From positions 124,001 through 188,000 of the IMG/VR virus record IMGVR_UViG_3300018962_000001: 64,000 nt of DNA. One strand, 5' to 3'. Below, in pieces: positions 3,827 through 43,140 of the stretch (positions are counted from its first letter, which is position 1; the number at the start of each line of letters is the position of its first letter). Made by a program: the position numbers and the translations under genes. This DNA is from a virus. The notes below the pieces were generated by a model. The model did not search any database and was not told where the DNA came from. It was given only the letters and a program-made list of their open reading frames with translations.

Positions 3827-4072
3827 ATGTCCACAGCCGACGAAAAAGAGCAAGCTGCTACGAAAGGGAATGAAGCGTTCCCTGATGGAAAAGTCCAGGT
3901 CGATGCGACGGAGGTGGGTGGCGAACACCGATCGACGAATCAGGCTCCCACGGATGATTATGATCACCGCCCGGCCCAAACGCAGAGTGCGGGAACCGTA
4001 ACAACACCCGCGTCAACGCCCCAACCGCCGCAGCCCGCAACCGAGTCCGGGCCGGAAAGCGTCGGTACCTAA
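3827..4072 (+). CDS. small disordered hydrophilic protein, 81 aa
   Basis: ATG 3827 follows AAGGAAG at a good distance, 41 bases after the DUF892 gene, so the two are probably co-transcribed. Composition is dominated by Asp, Glu, Thr, Pro, Gly and Gln with no hydrophobic core, so it is expected to be disordered. Bacterial DUF892 genes often sit near small stress-response proteins, but no family resemblance is claimed here. The gene ends 6 bases before a TTGACA element. Confidence 0.55.
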   Translation: MSTADEKEQAATKGNEAFPDGKVQVDATEVGGEHRSTNQAPTDDYDHRPAQTQSAGTVTTPASTPQPPQPATESGPESVGT

Positions 4073-4585: not shown

Positions 4586-4704
4586 CCCCAATTGCTGCCG
4601 GTCTGAGGGAGCCTTCGGGCGACATACCTCTGGATTGGGACCTACGGAGGCCTCCTGCCGTGGGCAGACAAGTGGAGGCAATACCTTAGTCGTGCGGAGG
4701 ATGT

Positions 4705-4887
4705 GTGAAAATTCTTGAGCGCGGTACACCGCCGTCCGAGCCGAGCTATGAGGTTCGCTGCAAGGCCTGTGGGAGTCTCATTTGCTTTCAAGAATCCGAG
4801 GCCAAAAAGACGGAGACTCAGTTCTATGGGACATCGATTGAGATCGCGTGTCCGGTGTGCCAGCAGACGATCACCATAACTCTGTAG
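4705..4887 (+). CDS. small two-Cys-pair zinc-ribbon-like protein, 60 aa
   Basis: A GTG start at 4705 follows GGAGG (697-700 of the same kilobase), while the ATG at 4701 is in another frame. The protein has two Cys pairs, CKAC at about residues 19-22 and CPVC at about 49-52, separated by a strand-rich stretch, which fits a small zinc ribbon. It lies between tRNA-Asp and tRNA-Arg and may be co-transcribed with them. No family is recognised. Confidence 0.6.
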   Translation: MKILERGTPPSEPSYEVRCKACGSLICFQESEAKKTETQFYGTSIEIACPVCQQTITITL

Positions 4888-12877: not shown

Positions 12878-15800
12878 TTACTCCCGTGGTTGATAGTAGC
12901 GAGCGCGGACCAGGGCGGTTGCATTTTGCTCCTGGAGCCGAACCGTCATTTGTGCGCTCATCGCAGGACTCTGCTCCTGCCGCTCCCAGGAGCGCTGCAC
13001 GCCCATGATATACAGGGGGCCATTGGTATCGTCGAGCGTGTTGGTAACCTCGACCAGATCAAACCGTTCATATTGAAGGGACGGATGCACCGGATACGCG
13101 CGCGGACGGAGACTTCGCTCAATGGTTAACAACTCTTGCCAGGCGCGCTCCCGACATTCGTCCTCATCGCGTAATCCATCAACCGAGATGACCCGCCACA
13201 GGAGTCGTCCGATTCGCTCCGCGATGGTTGGCGAGTACGCTGATCCCCAGATTTGAAGGCCACTTGCGGTTTTGGAGACGACCCGGATGGCGCACGGCAA
13301 CTGGTCATAGGCCACGCTATAGCCGCCCCCCATGATTCGCGCATCGCGCAGCGTTCCAACCGGCGTGTGGGCCAGGGTCCGCCCCACACGCAGCGTTCGT
13401 CCATCGGCGACCATCCAGGCTTGGCGACCCTCCAGCAGCGTCGTCAGATATTTATCGAGCGTTTCCCCTGGCGGAATCGGATCGTAGTTGGCGAGGCCAA
13501 GCCACGGAATGCGTACCTGATAAATCGTCGTCGTTTGATGGGTGCCACCGACCATCCCTAGTCCCGCCGAAAGACCCCAATACCCTTCGGCTACCAAGGT
13601 CTCATCGTAGAAGGTCCGGGCGAGGACGCCATTGGCGTACACGCTATACCACGGTCCATCGACGACAAAGCGAAACCATGTCCGCCCCTCCCCATTCCCA
13701 AAGATCGGCACGAGACTTTCCGACTCGGCAAATCCCACAAAGGTCGGGCCTTCCGGCTGGGGCGCGTTCACATATAAGCGGACACGCGCCCAGCGCGGAT
13801 CAGTGGCATCGACACACCCACCGCCAATGGAGATCGTGAGCAGGGCATACCGTTGTCCGTCCGGACTGGCGCGCGCCAAGATCCCAAATCCGCCGGTCCC
13901 CTCCATTTGCATATCGAGATCGATCACGAGATTCTGCGCCCAGACCCCGCTTTGCAGCCCCCAGATCCGATACATTGGAGCACGCCCAGTATCCACATAC
14001 TGGAGGCGGCCCGGATCGACACGCCAGTGGCTTTCCGCAGGCTGGCCCGCGAGATCGCGTCCGCCCAGGACCGTCCAGCCGTTCAGTGATCCCGAAGCCC
14101 AGCGCTCATCCAGCTGGGCTTCGGCGCGGAGATGGGTAAAGCCGCGTTGCGTCGCGATCCGGTGTAAGAATTCCTCAACGGTGGTTTCGCGCTCGTGACT
14201 CACGACCCGAATCATATCAAAATGTGTTGCGACTGCATAGTCGTTGATCGTAACGGGTTTTTCGGGATCATTGAGATCCTGATGGGAATACAGCGCCGTT
14301 TGGACCTCCAAGGGCGGAATCTCGACTCGAACCGCACAGTTGGCAGTGGATTGCAGCTCTCCGTAGCTCTGTCCATCTGGTCCAGCGAGCAAGACATCCA
14401 AGAGGGGCACCGGGTCCTCAATATTAATATAGGTAAATCCATCGATCTGCACGAGAATGCGGTGCATTTGGTGAGTCACTTCGACCTCATGGAATTGCGG
14501 CCAGGTCGTTTGCGCTCCCTCAATCATCGGCACGGCGCTGGATCGTGCCAGCAGGGTCCGATAGATGTTCTGCCGGAGGTCACGGGTGGCTTTGCCCGTT
14601 TGGGGATCGCGATACTCATACGTTGCTCGGACTTTCCACAGCTCCATCCCGACGCAAGTCCGCCCCCACTTCACAATATAGTATTGTGAGAAGTCGCTGG
14701 ATGCGCCGAACACAATGCCGACTGTTTGACGACCTCCCAGATCGGGATCTTCTGGCATCACCGTGATCGCATGATGCGGATGCATGGTGCGGACGTTCAC
14801 CGCAATGGTGACCCGCCCTGCCAAGCCGGTGGTAAATCCGAGCCAGTGGACACCGGGTTCCATGCCCCCCTCGTCGTGGGAAGCGGTCGTAATATACTGT
14901 TCGCCGTGCGCTTGATCATTAACCCAGCGCCATTTTGACTGGGCCACCGGCACCAGTGCTTGCAAATCCGATTCGGTATCAAAGCGATAGGTGACGCGCT
15001 CTCCCGGATCGGGCACCACAATGGCGCGATCGGTTTGGCCGTGCCGGATCTGATTGCTATAATCCGTGGCTTGTACCTGAAGGGTCCCCGCCACGTTCGC
15101 AACATCCTGGGGTCCGACCTGATCAATATGTCCTTGAAACACCCGCACAAGCTCGGTGTCTCGCCAGACTGATTCGCCGGTTGTGTACGCGCTCACCTGG
15201 GAGCCGTGTTCGAGCTGGGCTGCGTCTGCGAAAAAACTCTGGTGGAGATCCGTGACTCCGGTAAATCGCACAAAAAAGGCCGCGTGCGTCCGATCCGGCT
15301 GATCTGCCCGAAACGGGGCGGACACTCGTCGCCAGGTGCCAACTGCCTCGGCGACCAAACCGACGAGCAGCACCTGCGCCGCCGCCGCCACCGCGCCGCC
15401 GCGATACACGGCATGCAGCTCGATCGTCCCGGTGCCGGGAACTGTCTCATTGCGGACATGGATCGAGAAGGTATCGGTGACCGCAGGATCGATCGGCTGA
15501 TCCGTCACTCCGACCTGAAGAAACGTGGTTGGTTGGACCGCGATCACATGCAGCCCAACCACGCCGTCATAGGCCGCGTGGGCACTTCGCTCCAGATGAG
15601 AGGCCGAATCCCCCGTCGTCCATCCGACCGAATCTGACTCGACCGAAGGATTCCGCAGCCGGTTGACCAGCGTGCCCTGGCCGACATAGCCCGCCCGGAT
15701 CTCCAATTCTCCCCCATAGCGAACAAGGGGATGATCGTGATACAGGCGCAGCTCATTCTTCAGCGTAATATCTCCCTGTGCCGCCGCCGTTGGGTTTTCG

Positions 15801-17158
15801 GGTTCATCGACCCGAACACTGCGAACATGCGCCGTTACATCCAGTGCGGGGCCTTCAATCCCGCGCAGGGGATCACCGAACAGGCTCGTTGGTTCGGTGC
15901 GCCAGAGGCTATCATTCCCGACCAACCAGAGTGCCTTGCGCCACAGGATCGGCGTGCCCCAGTTATAGGGCGCTCCTTCATTGACGGGATCATAGCCGGG
16001 ATCACCCGGTCCTGCGCCGCTGGACTCTCCAATATAGTAGGCATCTGACCAATCTCGCCCATTGGTGCTGTAATACAGCACGCCGTGCCGGGCATGCACA
16101 AAATCGCTATCACTCAGGATACGACGGCCTGCGAGAACGACCTTATCTCCGATCCGACTTGCCCGAAACCCACGAATCTCATCTTGCTCAGGCTCAGCGA
16201 AATCGATAGCCTCGACGGGATAATGATCGGAAAACATGCGATTTTCATAGAGCACGGCAGCGGGTCGTCCCGCCAGATCATCCATATACACCAGCACACA
16301 GCTCCCGCGATCAGGGTCAACGATGGCCGCCGTAAACTGAAATTCTCCATCCCAGAATGCCTGCGAGGAGACCAACCGGGCACGAGTGCTACTCTTAATA
16401 TGCCGAGTCCGTTGCCAATAGGCGTTCGGACGGGACACGCCCTGGGAGTCCGTGCCGGAAGGGAAGAGTTGCCAGGCATGGAGATCAATCCACATGGTGC
16501 CCGGATCGCCATTGGTATGTCCGGCGTGTTGGCGCGAGGCAGCAAACAGGAGATCGGGCCGCGGCGCGGCCAGCGCCGTAAGATTCCAGTGACGACTCCC
16601 GTCGAGGCGCACTGGGTTAAGCCAGGACATCCCCGGTCGGGTTGGGTGCCGCATCGAATCTTGATACCAAATCGCGCCATCGTGCTGGCTAATCCAGAAA
16701 CAGCGGAGCCAGTGCCCAACCGAGGCTGAAAAGGCAGCGACCGCTTCGCGCGTCCCTTGCAACATGGTTGCGTTGGGGACGCGCGACCACTGCTGAAGCA
16801 GCGAAAGGACGCTGGTCTCGGCAGCCGTTCCAGGCACCGTGTTTAAAAAGATCGGTCCTTCCCGCCAATAGCGTTGGGGAACCCCAAAACTCCGCACCAG
16901 CGTATCGTCGGGAGTGACGCACACAGAGCCGGTGGTTCCACCTCCATGAATGGCGTCCGCTCCTTGCCACCCATAGGCCGCCCCAGGACTTCCAGCGGCT
17001 TCCATGCCGGTTGGAATGACACCGGCTCGGCCCGTCCGCGAATAAATGCGATTCCACCGCAGAACTGTTGGGTTGGGGCGGATAACCGCCTGGACTCGCG
17101 GCGTTTGAATCGCCGCGGAATCGGCGCGGAGAAAGTCGAGACTCAGATCCGTGCGCAC
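12878..17158 (-). CDS. large tail protein with propeller-like and CBM-like domains, 1426 aa
   Basis: A GTG start at 17158 follows AAAGGATA; the overlapping ATG is out of frame. Residues 60-450 have repeated strand segments with an Asp-box-like LYYSTNGRDWSD near 355, typical of sialidase-like beta-propellers. A jelly-roll (CBM4/9-like) module starts at NRLRNPSVES (about 501). Further strand-rich domains end with an ERQEQSPAMSAQMTVRL segment. Position between the barrel-bearing 2235-residue protein and the S74 fibre makes it a tail-tip or receptor-binding component. No catalytic residues can be assigned with confidence. Confidence 0.7.
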   Translation of the reverse strand: MRTDLSLDFLRADSAAIQTPRVQAVIRPNPTVLRWNRIYSRTGRAGVIPTGMEAAGSPGAAYGWQGADAIHGGGTTGSVCVTPDDTLVRSFGVPQRYWREGPIFLNTVPGTAAETSVLSLLQQWSRVPNATMLQGTREAVAAFSASVGHWLRCFWISQHDGAIWYQDSMRHPTRPGMSWLNPVRLDGSRHWNLTALAAPRPDLLFAASRQHAGHTNGDPGTMWIDLHAWQLFPSGTDSQGVSRPNAYWQRTRHIKSSTRARLVSSQAFWDGEFQFTAAIVDPDRGSCVLVYMDDLAGRPAAVLYENRMFSDHYPVEAIDFAEPEQDEIRGFRASRIGDKVVLAGRRILSDSDFVHARHGVLYYSTNGRDWSDAYYIGESSGAGPGDPGYDPVNEGAPYNWGTPILWRKALWLVGNDSLWRTEPTSLFGDPLRGIEGPALDVTAHVRSVRVDEPENPTAAAQGDITLKNELRLYHDHPLVRYGGELEIRAGYVGQGTLVNRLRNPSVESDSVGWTTGDSASHLERSAHAAYDGVVGLHVIAVQPTTFLQVGVTDQPIDPAVTDTFSIHVRNETVPGTGTIELHAVYRGGAVAAAAQVLLVGLVAEAVGTWRRVSAPFRADQPDRTHAAFFVRFTGVTDLHQSFFADAAQLEHGSQVSAYTTGESVWRDTELVRVFQGHIDQVGPQDVANVAGTLQVQATDYSNQIRHGQTDRAIVVPDPGERVTYRFDTESDLQALVPVAQSKWRWVNDQAHGEQYITTASHDEGGMEPGVHWLGFTTGLAGRVTIAVNVRTMHPHHAITVMPEDPDLGGRQTVGIVFGASSDFSQYYIVKWGRTCVGMELWKVRATYEYRDPQTGKATRDLRQNIYRTLLARSSAVPMIEGAQTTWPQFHEVEVTHQMHRILVQIDGFTYINIEDPVPLLDVLLAGPDGQSYGELQSTANCAVRVEIPPLEVQTALYSHQDLNDPEKPVTINDYAVATHFDMIRVVSHERETTVEEFLHRIATQRGFTHLRAEAQLDERWASGSLNGWTVLGGRDLAGQPAESHWRVDPGRLQYVDTGRAPMYRIWGLQSGVWAQNLVIDLDMQMEGTGGFGILARASPDGQRYALLTISIGGGCVDATDPRWARVRLYVNAPQPEGPTFVGFAESESLVPIFGNGEGRTWFRFVVDGPWYSVYANGVLARTFYDETLVAEGYWGLSAGLGMVGGTHQTTTIYQVRIPWLGLANYDPIPPGETLDKYLTTLLEGRQAWMVADGRTLRVGRTLAHTPVGTLRDARIMGGGYSVAYDQLPCAIRVVSKTASGLQIWGSAYSPTIAERIGRLLWRVISVDGLRDEDECRERAWQELLTIERSLRPRAYPVHPSLQYERFDLVEVTNTLDDTNGPLYIMGVQRSWERQEQSPAMSAQMTVRLQEQNATALVRARYYQPRE

Positions 17159-33441: not shown

Positions 33442-33530
33442 GGTGAACGCGGCCTGGATCGGCCTGAGACGGCATCGACGGGCAAGGCACGGTTGGGCTA
33501 TCCGTGGCTAGGTATGGTTGGGCGTGGCGC
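33442..33530 (+). repeat. degenerate GGYNN pentamer array in the tape-measure leader
   Basis: Between 33451 and 33527, GG occurs at 13 of 16 successive 5-base positions in a single phase, followed directly by a hairpin. The array is G-rich on the + strand, hence C-rich in the tape-measure mRNA. It is the same repeat type as the arrays at 35.3-37.3 kb but lies about 1.8 kb away from them. Confidence 0.75.
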
Positions 33531-33554
33531 AGCACCTCACATGTGTGAGGTGCT
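33531..33554 (+). other. hairpin ending the 33.5-kb pentamer array
   Basis: A perfect 10-bp stem, AGCACCTCAC and GTGAGGTGCT, encloses the loop ATGT. It starts in phase at the end of the pentamer array. No T run follows on either strand, so it is not an ordinary terminator. Confidence 0.75.
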
Positions 33555-33581
33555 GTTTGATTCTTGGGATGCCAACGGTGC

Positions 33582-35176: not shown

Positions 35177-35262
35177 TTGACAGACCGCATATCTATGTTA
35201 TACTGTCATTATAATGTATAGTATATAGAGTATAGCATACAAAACCTATGCTACATTATACT
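35177..35262. promoter_or_regulatory. divergent control region: + promoter and operator-like inverted repeat
   Basis: On the + strand, TTGACA (35177-35182) and TATACT (35199-35204) are 16 bases apart. Downstream is very AT-rich DNA with repeated TATA/AGTATA steps. A 7-bp inverted repeat, TAGCATA at 35233-35239 and TATGCTA at 35247-35253, has similar outer flanks on both sides and a 7-base spacer. A repressor binding here could cover both directions. - strand -10 candidates (35220-35225 and 35229-35234) lack good -35 boxes. Confidence 0.6.
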
Positions 35263-35359
35263 CCCACTCCCGGCAGAATGCTAGACATTCGACAGATGAA
35301 TTCGGACATGGTTGGGTGTGGATTGGCTAGGCTAGGAGAGGCACGGTGAGGTCTGGCAC

Positions 35360-35393
35360 GGATGACTCTGCACTGAGTCCAATCCCTTCGGGG
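35360..35393 (+). other. hairpin unit H1
   Basis: The flank GGAT is followed by stem GACTC, loop TGCACT, stem GAGTC, then CA and ATCC that can pair back to GGAT. A second small hairpin follows: CCC, loop TTCG, GGG (35384-35393), a stable UUCG-type tetraloop in RNA. Confidence 0.75.
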
Positions 35394-35490
35394 TATCTGG
35401 GTATGGCATGGGAACGGTTGGGTCCGGTAAGGATCGGCTGGGAGCGGCAAGGTGTGGCAAGGTCGGGCTGGGCCGGGCAACGCAGGGCAC

Positions 35491-35531
35491 GGATGGCGGT
35501 GTATTCCGCCACCATTCCCCACCAGGGGAAT
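35491..35531 (+). other. hairpin unit H2
   Basis: The flank GGAT is followed by stem GGCGG, loop TGTATT, stem CCGCC, then ACC. The second hairpin is ATTCCCC and GGGGAAT around loop ACCA (35514-35531), a perfect 7-bp stem. Confidence 0.8.
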
Positions 35532-35605
35532 ACGAGGATGGCTGGGCGCGGGCATGGCGAGGCGTGGCAAGTCGAGGCTGGGCCGCGCTAGGTGCGGCAA
35601 GGCAC

Positions 35606-35644
35606 GGATGATCGTGGATTCGATCACCATCCCTCACACGAGGG
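35606..35644 (+). other. hairpin unit H3
   Basis: The flank GGAT is followed by stem GATCG, loop TGGATT, stem CGATC, then ACC and ATCC that can pair with GGAT. The second hairpin is CCCT and AGGG around CACACG (35631-35644). Confidence 0.8.
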
Positions 35645-35720
35645 TTATTTGGCTCGGATCGGTCAGGATTGGCTAGGTCAGGTGGGGCTGGGTGAGGCTT
35701 GGTTTGGTACAAGGAGCAGT

Positions 35721-36359
35721 ATGATGGCATCCAACATGATTCAAGCGACGGTTGAGATCCAGGGAACGAAGCCACTGTTGTGGCACGCCTTTACGCCCGA
35801 CAGCATTCCGGCGGACGGCAAGAAGGAAAAGACCGGGGTGGCGGGTAACGATCCCCAGGAATGGCGGCGATCCTTCCTGGCGGATCACGAAGGCCGCTTG
35901 TTTGTGAACCCGGAATACATCTTCGGCTGCCTGCGCGATGGCGCGCGACACACCAAAAAAGGCCGTGGATCGATTATGTCGAATGTGGCGGCAACGCTTC
36001 AGATCGTGGACGAGCGGATCTACACCGATCGCTATTTCCCACGCAACGGCGCGACTGGCCCCTTTGATCCGGCATCGGCGGATCGCCCGCCGATCGAGAT
36101 CACCGAGCCGGTTTATCTCGACGTGCGATCGGTGAAGAACCCGTCCACGAAAGGTCGGAACGTCCGCTACCGGGTGGCGGCGAGTCCAGGGTGGCGGGCG
36201 AGCTTTACGATTCTGTGGGACAAAACCATTGTCAGCCGCACCGAGATGGAGGCGGTCATTACTGATGCGGGCCGACTCGTCGGGCTGGGTGATGGCCGAT
36301 CGATCGGCTTTGGTCGATTCATGGTGGTGCCAGGGTCCATCACGTTTACCGAGGTCTAG
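35721..36359 (+). CDS. RAMP-like protein with C-terminal Gly-rich loop, 212 aa
   Basis: ATG 35721 lies 5 bases after AAGGAG; longer in-frame starts fall inside the pentamer array and are rejected. The N-terminus is a strand (IQATVEIQGTKPLLWHAF, residues 7-24, with His22). The C-terminus carries GLGDGRSIGFG (188-198), an exact match to the GhGxxxxxGhG loop of the RAMP superfamily (Cas5, Cas6 and Cas7), ending in strand RFMVV. RAMP proteins are RNA-binding ferredoxin-like folds; related phage proteins with a similar C-terminal 'G..GRF' motif are common and uncharacterised. It is flanked on both sides by hairpin-containing arrays and followed by an HNH gene. RNA or ssDNA binding is likely; hairpin recognition is a hypothesis. 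Confidence 0.7.
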   Translation: MMASNMIQATVEIQGTKPLLWHAFTPDSIPADGKKEKTGVAGNDPQEWRRSFLADHEGRLFVNPEYIFGCLRDGARHTKKGRGSIMSNVAATLQIVDERIYTDRYFPRNGATGPFDPASADRPPIEITEPVYLDVRSVKNPSTKGRNVRYRVAASPGWRASFTILWDKTIVSRTEMEAVITDAGRLVGLGDGRSIGFGRFMVVPGSITFTEV

Positions 36360-36369
36360 AGTCTTTCGA

Positions 36370-36425
36370 GGCGAGGCATGGTGAGGTGAGGTATGGGGTG
36401 GTTGGCGAGGTACGGCCTGGCAAGG
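36370..36425 (+). repeat. degenerate GGYNN pentamer array 2 (between RAMP-like and HNH genes)
   Basis: GG falls at 36370, 36375 and so on to 36400, then shifts back by one base and continues at 36404, 36409, 36414, 36419 and 36424: 12 units with one 4-base unit. The last unit merges with the AAGGAG ribosome-binding site (36422-36427) of the HNH gene. There is no hairpin unit in this short array. Confidence 0.85.
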
Positions 36426-36434
36426 AGTTTGAAC

Positions 36435-36752
36435 ATGGGCATGAAACGACAACCTCCGAAGATCTGGGAAGGAACCCGCAAACGAATATTCGAACGCGAT
36501 CGGGGGATCTGCCAATCTCCCCTGGCTCCACCCCTGTGTCAAGGGAAACGCGGCGAGTTAACGCTTGCCACGGCGCATATCGACCACCGGCGAAGCGGTC
36601 GGTTTGGCACGAATGCGGATAGCAACCTCCGGGTGCTCTGCCGCGCGTGCCACGTCCTCCGCGACGATCCGCGCCACCGAGGCATGATCGGCGGAGCCTT
36701 GCGCGACGGGATCATCCCTCCCCATTGGCGGGAGCTAACCTGGGGAGAGTAG
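36435..36752 (+). CDS. HNH endonuclease, 105 aa
   Basis: ATG 36435 is 8 bases after AAGGAG; the in-frame ATG at 36393 lies within the array. The motif is complete: C26 and C35, HIDH at 48-51 (H51 the general base), N64 in NLRVLC, and C69/C72/H73 in CRACH. The four cysteines can hold a structural zinc, though the first pair has 8 residues between (usually 2). HNH enzymes of this size nick or cut DNA; phage ones often assist packaging next to terminase, but this one is in an isolated island beside a RAMP-like gene. An active nuclease is expected. Target unknown. Confidence 0.88.
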   Translation: MGMKRQPPKIWEGTRKRIFERDRGICQSPLAPPLCQGKRGELTLATAHIDHRRSGRFGTNADSNLRVLCRACHVLRDDPRHRGMIGGALRDGIIPPHWRELTWGE

Positions 36753-36974
36753 ATGGGTCGTCCAAGGCACAGAACGGGTGCCGTGCGCCAGCTGCCGTGG
36801 CGCAGAGTCGTCACGGCAGCACGTGATGGCGGAATCATGGGGGCGGTGCTGGGAGGGGTGTTCTTTGGCCCTTCTGGCGCGCTGGTGACCAGCTTAGTAG
36901 GAGCGGTGGCAGCGGCGGCGGTTCGCTGGTATCGAAGCGTCAAGGCGAGAGGTCGCATGGGAAGGCATGGATGA
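36753..36974 (+). CDS. small basic membrane protein, 73 aa
   Basis: ATG 36753 directly follows the HNH stop (TAGATG) with GGGGAGAG upstream, so it is translationally coupled. A basic N-terminus (residues 1-24) precedes a Gly/Ala-rich hydrophobic stretch with small-residue spacing (GGIMGAVLGGVFFGPSGALVTSLVGAVAAAAV, quoted by position 26-57 in part), then a basic tail. This fits a short membrane protein, perhaps holin-like or toxin-like in shape; neither is claimed. Its last 30 bases already follow the pentamer pattern of array 3. Confidence 0.55.
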   Translation: MGRPRHRTGAVRQLPWRRVVTAARDGGIMGAVLGGVFFGPSGALVTSLVGAVAAAAVRWYRSVKARGRMGRHG

Positions 36975-37011
36975 TCGTGGATCGATCCCACTTCTCGGTT
37001 GGGCAAGCGAG
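36969..37011 (+). other. hairpin unit H4
   Basis: The flank GGAT is followed by stem GATCG, loop TGGAT and stem CGATC, then CCA. It shares its first 14 bases with H3. A weaker second pairing is CTCG (36994-36997) with CGAG (37008-37011). The stop codon of the membrane-protein gene (36972-36974) lies in it. Confidence 0.65.
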
Positions 37012-37066
37012 GGTCTGGCAAGGACAGGCAAGGCTTGGCTCGGCAGGGTCGGGTTCGGCTGGGCAA

Positions 37067-37091
37067 GGATACTGGTGTTTCCAGTACCATC
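37067..37091 (+). other. hairpin unit H5
   Basis: The flank GGAT is followed by stem ACTGG, loop TGTTT, stem CCAGT, then ACC and ATC. No clear second hairpin follows. Confidence 0.75.
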
Positions 37092-37147
37092 GATTGGGTG
37101 TGGCGGGGCGGTGGTAGGGTGGGGCTTGGCTTGGTCCGGCACGGCAG

Positions 37148-37187
37148 GGATGATGGTGTCTCCATTCCACCTCATGGTCGGGCGAGG
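37148..37187 (+). other. hairpin unit H6
   Basis: The flank GGAT is followed by stem GATGG, loop TGTCT and stem CCATT (one G-T pair), then CCACC. A second pairing is CCTC (37170-37173) with GAGG (37184-37187). Confidence 0.7.
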
Positions 37188-37240
37188 AGGGGCGAGGCAG
37201 GGCTAGGCGGGGCAAGGTGAGGCCCGGCAAGGTTCGGCAC

Positions 37241-37265
37241 CGATCCTCGTGTCATCGAGGCCACC
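37241..37265 (+). other. hairpin unit H7
   Basis: The flank CGAT is followed by stem CCTCG, loop TGTCAT, stem CGAGG, then CCACC. This is the only unit with C instead of G at the first flank base. Confidence 0.75.
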
Positions 37266-37327
37266 ACGGGGTATGCCGAGGCGTGGTAAGGTGAGGCTAG
37301 GCTGCGGTGAGGTCCGGCGAGACGGGG

Positions 37328-37358
37328 AACAGGACGGGTGCTGGTCACCCGTCCTGTT
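37328..37358. terminator. 13-bp hairpin closing array 3 at the tail-chaperone stop
   Basis: AACAGGACGGGTG and its exact complement enclose loop CTGGT. The - strand gene ends within it (TGA at 37345-37347). There is no T tract on either side, so it may be a bidirectional or rho-assisted terminator, or the last array element. Confidence 0.6.
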
Positions 37359-42078: not shown

Positions 42079-43140
42079 CTAGATCGTTGGAGCCGTATAG
42101 GTTGCGCCCCCAACATAGAGGACGGCCCCGTTCGTCCTATTCCAGACCCCGATCCCAAACTCCCTGTCCATCGTCTGGGCGCGCAGTGGATAGTGCTCGT
42201 GGTCGGCAGCAATCGTCAGATCCCCGGCGAGACCACCATCACGGGTGCGCAGCACCAGCGGTTTCAGCGGCGAGGCGGCATCGAAGCAGAAAAGGTAGCC
42301 GGATGGAACCCACGGCTTCACCCACACCTCCGCTGGCCCGAAGATCCCGATGGCGCGGTTATACATCGTGCCCATATCGAGAGTCCGACCCGGTGCGGTT
42401 CGCTCGTTGGCTCCCGGCTGAATCCGCATATCGAAATAGGGCGTGAAGTTCGAGAATGCCCGGAACGTGGCTTCCGACGCGCGATTGATATACAGCCGGA
42501 CCCCTACGCCAAACCCGTGCTCGACCACCGTCTCAACCACGTTCAGCGCTGCCGCTTCGGTCAGCGTGGTGGTTGCGAGGTAGTGGGTATGTGTGCTTGA
42601 ATCAAACGGCTGCCCGTAGGGATCGTTGGGGATGGCCGTCCCATCCGCATTGACCAACGCCCGCAGCGGCACGTTGACGTTATCCACCAACCGATCGATG
42701 TAGGCAAGGTTGTTCGTTGGGGTAAATAACGCACGCTTAATCTGCCGTTGGATATTCCGAATATCCGCCGTGCGGGCCGCGACATATTGTGCGTCCAGCT
42801 CGGCGACGGTTCGGTTCATCATGTAGAGTCGCGTCCATTGAATCGAGTACTGGAACAGGCGCATCGGAAAGCCCACGGTAACACCGGCGGCGATCTTCTG
42901 CGCGTCTGCCGTGCCGTACTCGTCAACTTCGACCATCTCGCCCTCGGCCACGCCACCGTAGCGGCGCTGGCGATCGACGGTCGGATCGACCAGATCCCCG
43001 ATCATTTCGCGCACAATCATATTGTGGGCATCGAGGTTGGCTTGAATCGCGGCGAACGCACGGTCCTCCCCAAACTGCGCAATCGTCTGATTGGCGGCCT
43101 GGGTGTCAAGGACCTGTAAGGTACCGTATGAGGTTGCCAT
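42079..43140 (-). CDS. major capsid protein, 353 aa
   Basis: The gene follows the scaffold and decoration genes, the classical order. The N-terminal helix (residues 14-50, ANQTIAQFGEDRAFAAIQANLDAHN) precedes an extended loop region (DPTVDRQRRYGG). A long spine-like helix occurs around 110-150 (RTVAELDAQYVAARTADIRNIQRQIKRALF), and the C-terminal half has P-domain strands (GIGVWNRTNGAVLYVGGATY). Length fits HK97-fold capsid proteins without an N-terminal delta domain. About 40 bases without a gene follow it. Confidence 0.78.
   Translation of the reverse strand: MATSYGTLQVLDTQAANQTIAQFGEDRAFAAIQANLDAHNMIVREMIGDLVDPTVDRQRRYGGVAEGEMVEVDEYGTADAQKIAAGVTVGFPMRLFQYSIQWTRLYMMNRTVAELDAQYVAARTADIRNIQRQIKRALFTPTNNLAYIDRLVDNVNVPLRALVNADGTAIPNDPYGQPFDSSTHTHYLATTTLTEAAALNVVETVVEHGFGVGVRLYINRASEATFRAFSNFTPYFDMRIQPGANERTAPGRTLDMGTMYNRAIGIFGPAEVWVKPWVPSGYLFCFDAASPLKPLVLRTRDGGLAGDLTIAADHEHYPLRAQTMDREFGIGVWNRTNGAVLYVGGATYTAPTI

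Follow-up and report, generated by a model that had tools for sequence, protein, structure and literature searches.

A probable VIPR locus with an HNH accessory gene in a jumbo phage: compensating hairpins as 3' tails of putative guide RNAs

The window analysed here, a stretch of 64,000 nucleotides, is part of a 204,685-base virus record. Toward its middle lies a locus (Table 1) in which seven hairpins, all of them present on the + strand between 35355 and 37260 as the first-pass annotation had reported, each cap a tract of GGYNN pentamers. The stretches between the hairpins, which that annotation left uninterpreted, are not filler: they are these GGYNN tracts, with a period of 5, and the informative part of the RNA is the tract lying 5' of the hairpin. 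At positions 1 and 2 alike, G is present in 103 of 107 units; the third base is a pyrimidine in 94 of 107, and positions 4-5 are open. Tract length is roughly 8-19 units, depending on the parse (A2 is the longest; B1, C3 and C5 are irregular), and hairpin C1 has only a degenerate guide, almost none. Elsewhere in the record a single solo tract, D1, is found at 33451, 1.7 kb from the locus and adjoining the start of the tape-measure gene; it could be an orphan guide RNA.

The region has the look of a single transcription unit: a sigma-70-like promoter matching 11 of 12 consensus positions stands at 35177, preceding the first array and facing the gene of a divergent helix-turn-helix (HTH) protein, and a 13-bp inverted repeat, with a TTGATT-like sequence after it, lies at 37328-37358. 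The latter drew no call in a strict terminator scan; it is the probable end of the unit. The HTH protein may be a repressor of the locus. Tail-less GGYNN tracts abut the GGAG of vipr or of the HNH gene (35651-35716 and 36370-36431), an arrangement suggestive of guides that double as translational leaders. The phage itself is far from cultured relatives; tblastn over 50,697 phage records returned nothing for its candidate capsid (42079-43140) or for a 1426-aa protein (12878-17158).

Table 1. Features of the locus and of the solo tract outside it, in window coordinates
Feature	Position	Strand	Basis or remark
Solo guide tract D1, 15-16 units, ending in 12-bp terminator hairpin	33451..33556	+	Outside the locus
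Cro/C1-type HTH regulator, divergent, 71 aa	34921..35136	-	PF13443, E=1.6e-5
Sigma-70-like promoter, TTGACA-16-TATACT, TG before second hexamer	35177..35204	+	11/12, consensus match only
Guide tract A1, 11 GGYNN units, the first of 6 nt	35304..35359	+	
Tail hairpin A1, GACTC/GAGTC, loop TGCACT, then second hairpin	35355..35379	+	
Guide tract A2, 19 units	35395..35490	+	16 most 5' NN spell RQRFTLAHELGHLIMH
Tail hairpin A2, GGCGG/CCGCC, then second hairpin TTCCCC/GGGGAA	35486..35510	+	
Guide tract A3, 13 units	35540..35605	+	
Tail hairpin A3, GATCG/CGATC, then second hairpin CCCTC/GAGGG	35601..35625	+	
Guide tract A4, 12 perfect units, tail-less	35651..35710	+	Abuts AAGGAG ribosome-binding site of vipr
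vipr, RAMP (Cas7/Csm3-like), G-loop GLGDGRSIGFGRF	35724..36359	+	PDB 36pp, phrog_4652, Foldseek; start at 35721, 35724 or 35736
Guide tract B1, 11-12 irregular units, tail-less	36370..36428	+	Ends in GGAG before HNH gene
HNH endonuclease	36435..36752	+	PF01844 at its cutoff; PHROG HNH families
Small hydrophobic protein, glycine-zipper-like, 73 aa	36753..36974	+	All matches below cutoff
Tail hairpin C1, GATCG/CGATC	36964..36987	+	Overlaps end of preceding ORF
Guide tract C2, 14 units	36997..37066	+	
Tail hairpin C2, ACTGG/CCAGT, loop TGTTT	37062..37085	+	
Guide tract C3, about 10 units	37097..37147	+	
Tail hairpin C3, GATGG/CCATT, one G.U pair	37143..37166	+	
Guide tract C4, 13 perfect units	37176..37240	+	
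Tail hairpin C4, CCTCG/CGAGG	37236..37260	+	
Guide tract C5, 8-10 units	37280..37327	+	Capped by terminator-like hairpin, no tail
Intrinsic-terminator-like hairpin, 13-bp perfect stem, then GATTC	37328..37358	+	13-bp inverted repeat

The details of the hairpin units needed some adjustment. Each stem had been said to face its complement; this is so for all units but the sixth (C3), where it is not exactly so because of one G.U pair. A loop of 5-6 nt beginning with TG is indeed common to all seven array copies. The constant 5' flank exists but is longer than the GGAT or CGAT originally noticed: it reads GGCA-N-[CG]GAT. The 64-kb window holds 11 copies of this motif, and a 5-bp stem closing a loop of 5-6 nt follows 7 of 7 copies in the arrays and 0 of 4 copies outside them, the chance of such a stem being 2.7% of positions in the regional background. 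The 3' flank, described as usually ACC, is looser (three units have ACC, three CC and one CA), and the second small hairpin attributed to at least three units is clear only in the upstream A1, A2 and A3.

The covariation of the stems is real. All 35 stem positions are paired, and exchange of 3' arms between units lowers this to a mean of 22; only two of the 5040 arm permutations reach 35, namely the unpermuted order and the one that interchanges the two identical stems; in the four gap-free units all five pairs change on both sides, with a covariation score matched by none of 500 shuffles; and when a covariance model is trained on these four, its next matches in the 64-kb window are the three units left out, at 24.7, 19.9 and 18.2 bits as against 12.4 for the top background match. 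The selection for a folded RNA that had been read from the stems is supported by their compensation and by the held-out recovery, with the amendment that a longer RNA is involved, of which the hairpin forms just the tail. Rfam, at gathering and at relaxed thresholds, returned nothing relevant on the locus, a hammerhead ribozyme included.

The identity of the protein encoded by the first open reading frame, Vipr, did not emerge from domain databases: Pfam gave no significant match, and Pfam, NCBIfam and PADLOC together only sub-threshold RAMP and Cas6 matches (Cas6 at E about 0.03). A profile of its family searched against the PDB has one significant match, over most of its length, to 36pp, the 'SUSP1 Vipr protein' (E=5e-8 when the profile holds three sequences, E=3.8e-9 when it holds eight). 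A first AlphaFold model, from three sequences, was set aside as too poor (pLDDT 38); Foldseek of the model then used, itself of moderate confidence (pLDDT 62), leads to the Csm3/Cas7 RAMPs at E=2e-5. The Vipr G-loop is conserved among relatives, as are the HNH residues of the second protein, whose gene follows vipr here and in relatives. In the phage collection neither Vipr nor the HNH protein has a match.

VIPR (Viral Interference Programmable Repeat) is a recently described, CRISPR-like phage weapon (PMC13142463), known chiefly from SUSP1 and Pseudomonas prophages through a preprint of 2026 (PMC13142463). It combines a RAMP protein with RNAs of 9-16 GGY/NN units that end in a structured 3' tail (PMC13142463); the NN letters recognise double-stranded DNA with one base skipped, usually the codon wobble (PMC13142463), and the product of an accessory gene, vap, interacts with DNA (PMC13142463). 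In types III-V the vap is an enzyme, typing being by Vipr phylogeny and vap (PMC13142463); HNH is not named in the main text (PMC13142463). Every sequence-level feature of VIPR is found at the locus except a SUSP1-type pseudoknot: a Vipr RAMP with an RRM core and G-loop; GGY/NN tracts with variable NN; a structured tail in the form of seven compensating hairpins (A4 and B1 have none, and C5 and D1 end in terminator-like hairpins); an HNH gene after vipr, its product a candidate vap accessory protein; and a reading with 1-nt skips at codon wobble, seen for guide A2 only.

SUSP1 VIPR (type II, PDB 36pp) is likewise phage-borne, with a Vipr RAMP, GGYNN tracts and 3' tails, and its arrays also lie both upstream and downstream of vipr. 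Its tails begin with GGAT or a similar sequence and continue with compensating 5-bp stems (GGTAG/CTACC, GTCTC/GAGAC twice and GGCAG/CTGCC), so that fixed flanks with changing stems are common to both systems. The accessory differs, being an HNH nuclease here and vap1 in SUSP1; Vipr identity is remote; and guides are more numerous here, including tail-less ones fused to ribosome-binding sites. The tail loop differs too: 5-6 nt from TG here, about 14-16 nt with an NNGG/CCNN pseudoknot in SUSP1. Such a pseudoknot, claimed for the SUSP1 clade only (PMC13142463), is absent here by inspection, the TG loop having no CCNN of the kind that pairs with NNGG in SUSP1; a 2-bp CA/TG contact in the tail is possible. 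With the class 1 CRISPR RAMPs (Csm3/Cas7, Cas6) Vipr shares the fold and the G-loop, but the guide here is gapped, with a period of 5, and there is a single small RAMP; the locus contains no CRISPR repeat/spacer array and no cas genes.

Array, Vipr and HNH occur together in seven viral contigs (L011, L012, L013, L014, L015, L017 and L024) and in Paenibacillus cellulosilyticus (L155). The seven are divergent: their Vipr is 46-59% and their HNH protein about 50-56% identical to the window proteins. As in the window, a GGYNN tract precedes or follows HNH (in L024 the array lies after it). Tails of this HNH group vary widely, from the long stem-loops of L013-L015 to a type II hammerhead ribozyme that comes immediately behind the GGYNN array in L155. 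The last is consistent with the hammerhead-interspersed arrays that the preprint mentions (PMC13142463). At 4866-5106 of L155 the hammerhead is accompanied by a similar, unscored sequence before the array, in a stretch unannotated in the plasmid table. The short TG-loop tail is found only in this phage: none of the fetched relatives carries it, and a tail-pattern scan of viral contigs turned up many GGYNN arrays, all with other tails. One covariance-model match at 20 bits (L003, 5809-5834) was dismissed, having no GGYNN tract before it. In a guide common to L013 and L015 the NN differ at 1 of 32 positions and the GGY at 9 of 48 (Fisher P=0.045); greater conservation of NN is as expected if NN carry information. 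At 3905-3998 of these two contigs this conserved kind of guide stands beside a hypervariable one, one guide being kept and its neighbour wholly different. Tail-less tracts running into GGAG recur at 5750-5812 of L011 and at 3905-4000 of both L013 and L015.

What the guides say is legible in one case. Guide A2, reversed (as the reverse complement) and read with a 1-nt skip, spells RQRFTLAHELGHLIMH, the active-site motif of ImmA/IrrE proteases, and the skips coincide with codon wobble positions. Eight NN of A2, set out with 1-nt skips as a search pattern, match 25 viral stretches. Most of these lie antisense in genes that encode the motif RFTLAHELGH, where the majority of the matches also fit two 5' NN that were absent from the query. 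A 26-base version has exact matches in 22 bacterial genomes out of 84,980 genomes, all in ImmA/IrrE genes, for a chance expectation of about 1e-4 (2 x 257e9 / 4^26); these 22 belong to one protein family and are not independent, but how many there are has no bearing on the shuffle and Pfam controls. The top match (L118) agrees at 16 of 16 NN, or 32 of 32 bases, and comes from a Bacteroidota MAG, which need not be the natural target; the HTH-ImmA gene that holds it has a tyrosine-recombinase-like gene within a few kb. With skips of 0, 2 and 3 the best agreement is 20-21 of 32, and among 200 guides shuffled in order none exceeds 23 of 32. The decoded peptide matches PF06114 above cutoff (E=1.1e-6), and the best of 29 other decoded peptides has E=0.05, none being significant. 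The match of A2 to ImmA/IrrE is not a coincidence, given 32 of 32 at wobble skips and the PF06114 match.

The fit has its irregularities: the three tail-proximal NN of A2 do not fit the ImmA/IrrE matches, and its 5' extension holds only if one unit of 6 nt (GGGAAC) and one that lacks GG (ATCTG) are allowed. It was for the SUSP1 type that the 1-nt skip rule was established, and A2 is the one guide, of about ten, that carries it here. Guides A4, C2 and C4 gave chance-level matches in viral contigs, and the other guides no outlier in 1.2 Mb of fetched loci. The 204.7-kb record holds no self-target and no A2 site. A3 was considered as a guide to a pPIWI-associated nuclease and rejected (E=0.05, not significant over 30 queries). 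Here, in a jumbo phage unrelated to the described systems, a guide read by the published 1-nt skip yields a protein motif that can be recognised, which is independent support for VIPR.

We put the probability that this is a jumbo-phage VIPR locus with an HNH accessory, its hairpins being structured 3' tails of guide RNAs (vrRNAs), at roughly 0.93. Transcription, processing, protein binding and repression or cleavage, which we infer by analogy with the described systems, would run as follows. A single transcript from the promoter near 35200 to the hairpin at 37358 would carry the tailed guides together with vipr, the HNH gene and the small ORF. Vipr subunits would coat the GGYNN tract, each GGY held and each NN exposed, and the tail hairpin would cap and delimit each guide; since only pairing would matter, stem sequence drifts, and the tail is held by pairing and not by sequence. 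On double-stranded DNA the exposed NN would do the reading, passing over one base in each unit; binding would repress the target by silencing its transcription, with the HNH protein possibly cutting it. ImmA-type metalloproteases are anti-repressors in integrative elements and prophages (PMC10233336, PMC6872733), so that silencing or cutting an ImmA/IrrE gene would leave rival prophages or integrative elements dormant; keeping such rivals from switching on would be the purpose. This is in line with the Pseudomonas VIPR guides, which concentrate on lysogeny regulators (PMC13142463). Because the skipped base is the codon wobble, A2 could recognise ImmA/IrrE genes of many mobile elements, which suggests that the best-conserved codons of a protein family can serve to target it over a broad range. 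The fuller proposal is doubtful: that one A2 guide acts, with HNH cutting, on the whole ImmA/IrrE family of many unrelated mobile elements, that short tails have replaced pseudoknots and ribozymes, with stems whose divergence between units perhaps keeps the tandem array from recombining, and that tail-less tracts tune the operon. For reporter assays of an HNH-bearing VIPR type, the A2 site offers a target at once.

The tail-less tracts invite another reading, improbable in our estimation: a VIPR locus for which ImmA/IrrE is not a working target and whose tracts act mainly on their own transcript, for example with Vipr autoregulating translation. A4 and B1 do abut the ribosome-binding sites of vipr and HNH, and the order tract-GGAG-HNH recurs in L011, L013 and L015; this reading is opposed by the 32 of 32 bases (shuffled guides, no more than 23) and the Pfam match of the decoded peptide, and autoregulation may coexist with targeting. 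Quite unlikely is a role for the hairpins as attenuators or intrinsic terminators punctuating the transcript: the second hairpin of A3 was called terminator-like and C5, D1 and a relative (L026, which has no tail) end in terminator-like hairpins, but six of the seven units have no T run after them and the downstream genes need transcription through them, even if some 3' ends could have a dual role. We give still less credence to the idea that the hairpins are a structured noncoding RNA or riboregulator family in their own right and that the repeats only happen to separate them, for which the stem covariation and the lack of an Rfam match at the locus would speak; the repeats are a regular, conserved element that relatives keep without the TG-loop hairpin, and the adjacent first reading frame matches Vipr. 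Hairpin DNA sites for recombination or replication (attC-like, iterons or protein-binding single-stranded hairpins), brought to mind by an array of spaced inverted repeats next to the gene of an HNH nuclease, are the least plausible of all, with every unit on one strand of one apparent transcription unit directly after a GGYNN tract and with an adjacent RAMP gene that points to RNA binding. The attC, iteron and attenuator readings were rejected on anatomy.

Several observations on other loci may be recorded. Ahead of guide tracts in SUSP1 (L153; 2260-2310 and 3850-3890) stands an inverted sequence that recurs, CACTTAAGAGTCTTCTAAGAGGGTTTTTAAGTG, possibly a processing or promoter element. On the Nostoc plasmid pNsp_f (L156), where Vipr, array and HNH also occur together, the stretch between Vipr and HNH (4600-4720) contains pentamers of the form GTYNN, not GGYNN, so that the consensus of the repeat is altered. 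GGYNN arrays with other recurring tails (GGATACTTTTGTGGATT, GGATTTTAGTG and GGATTTGTTTGATG) are present in L032, L053, L040, L054, L055, L036 and L029, and these are probably further VIPR loci.
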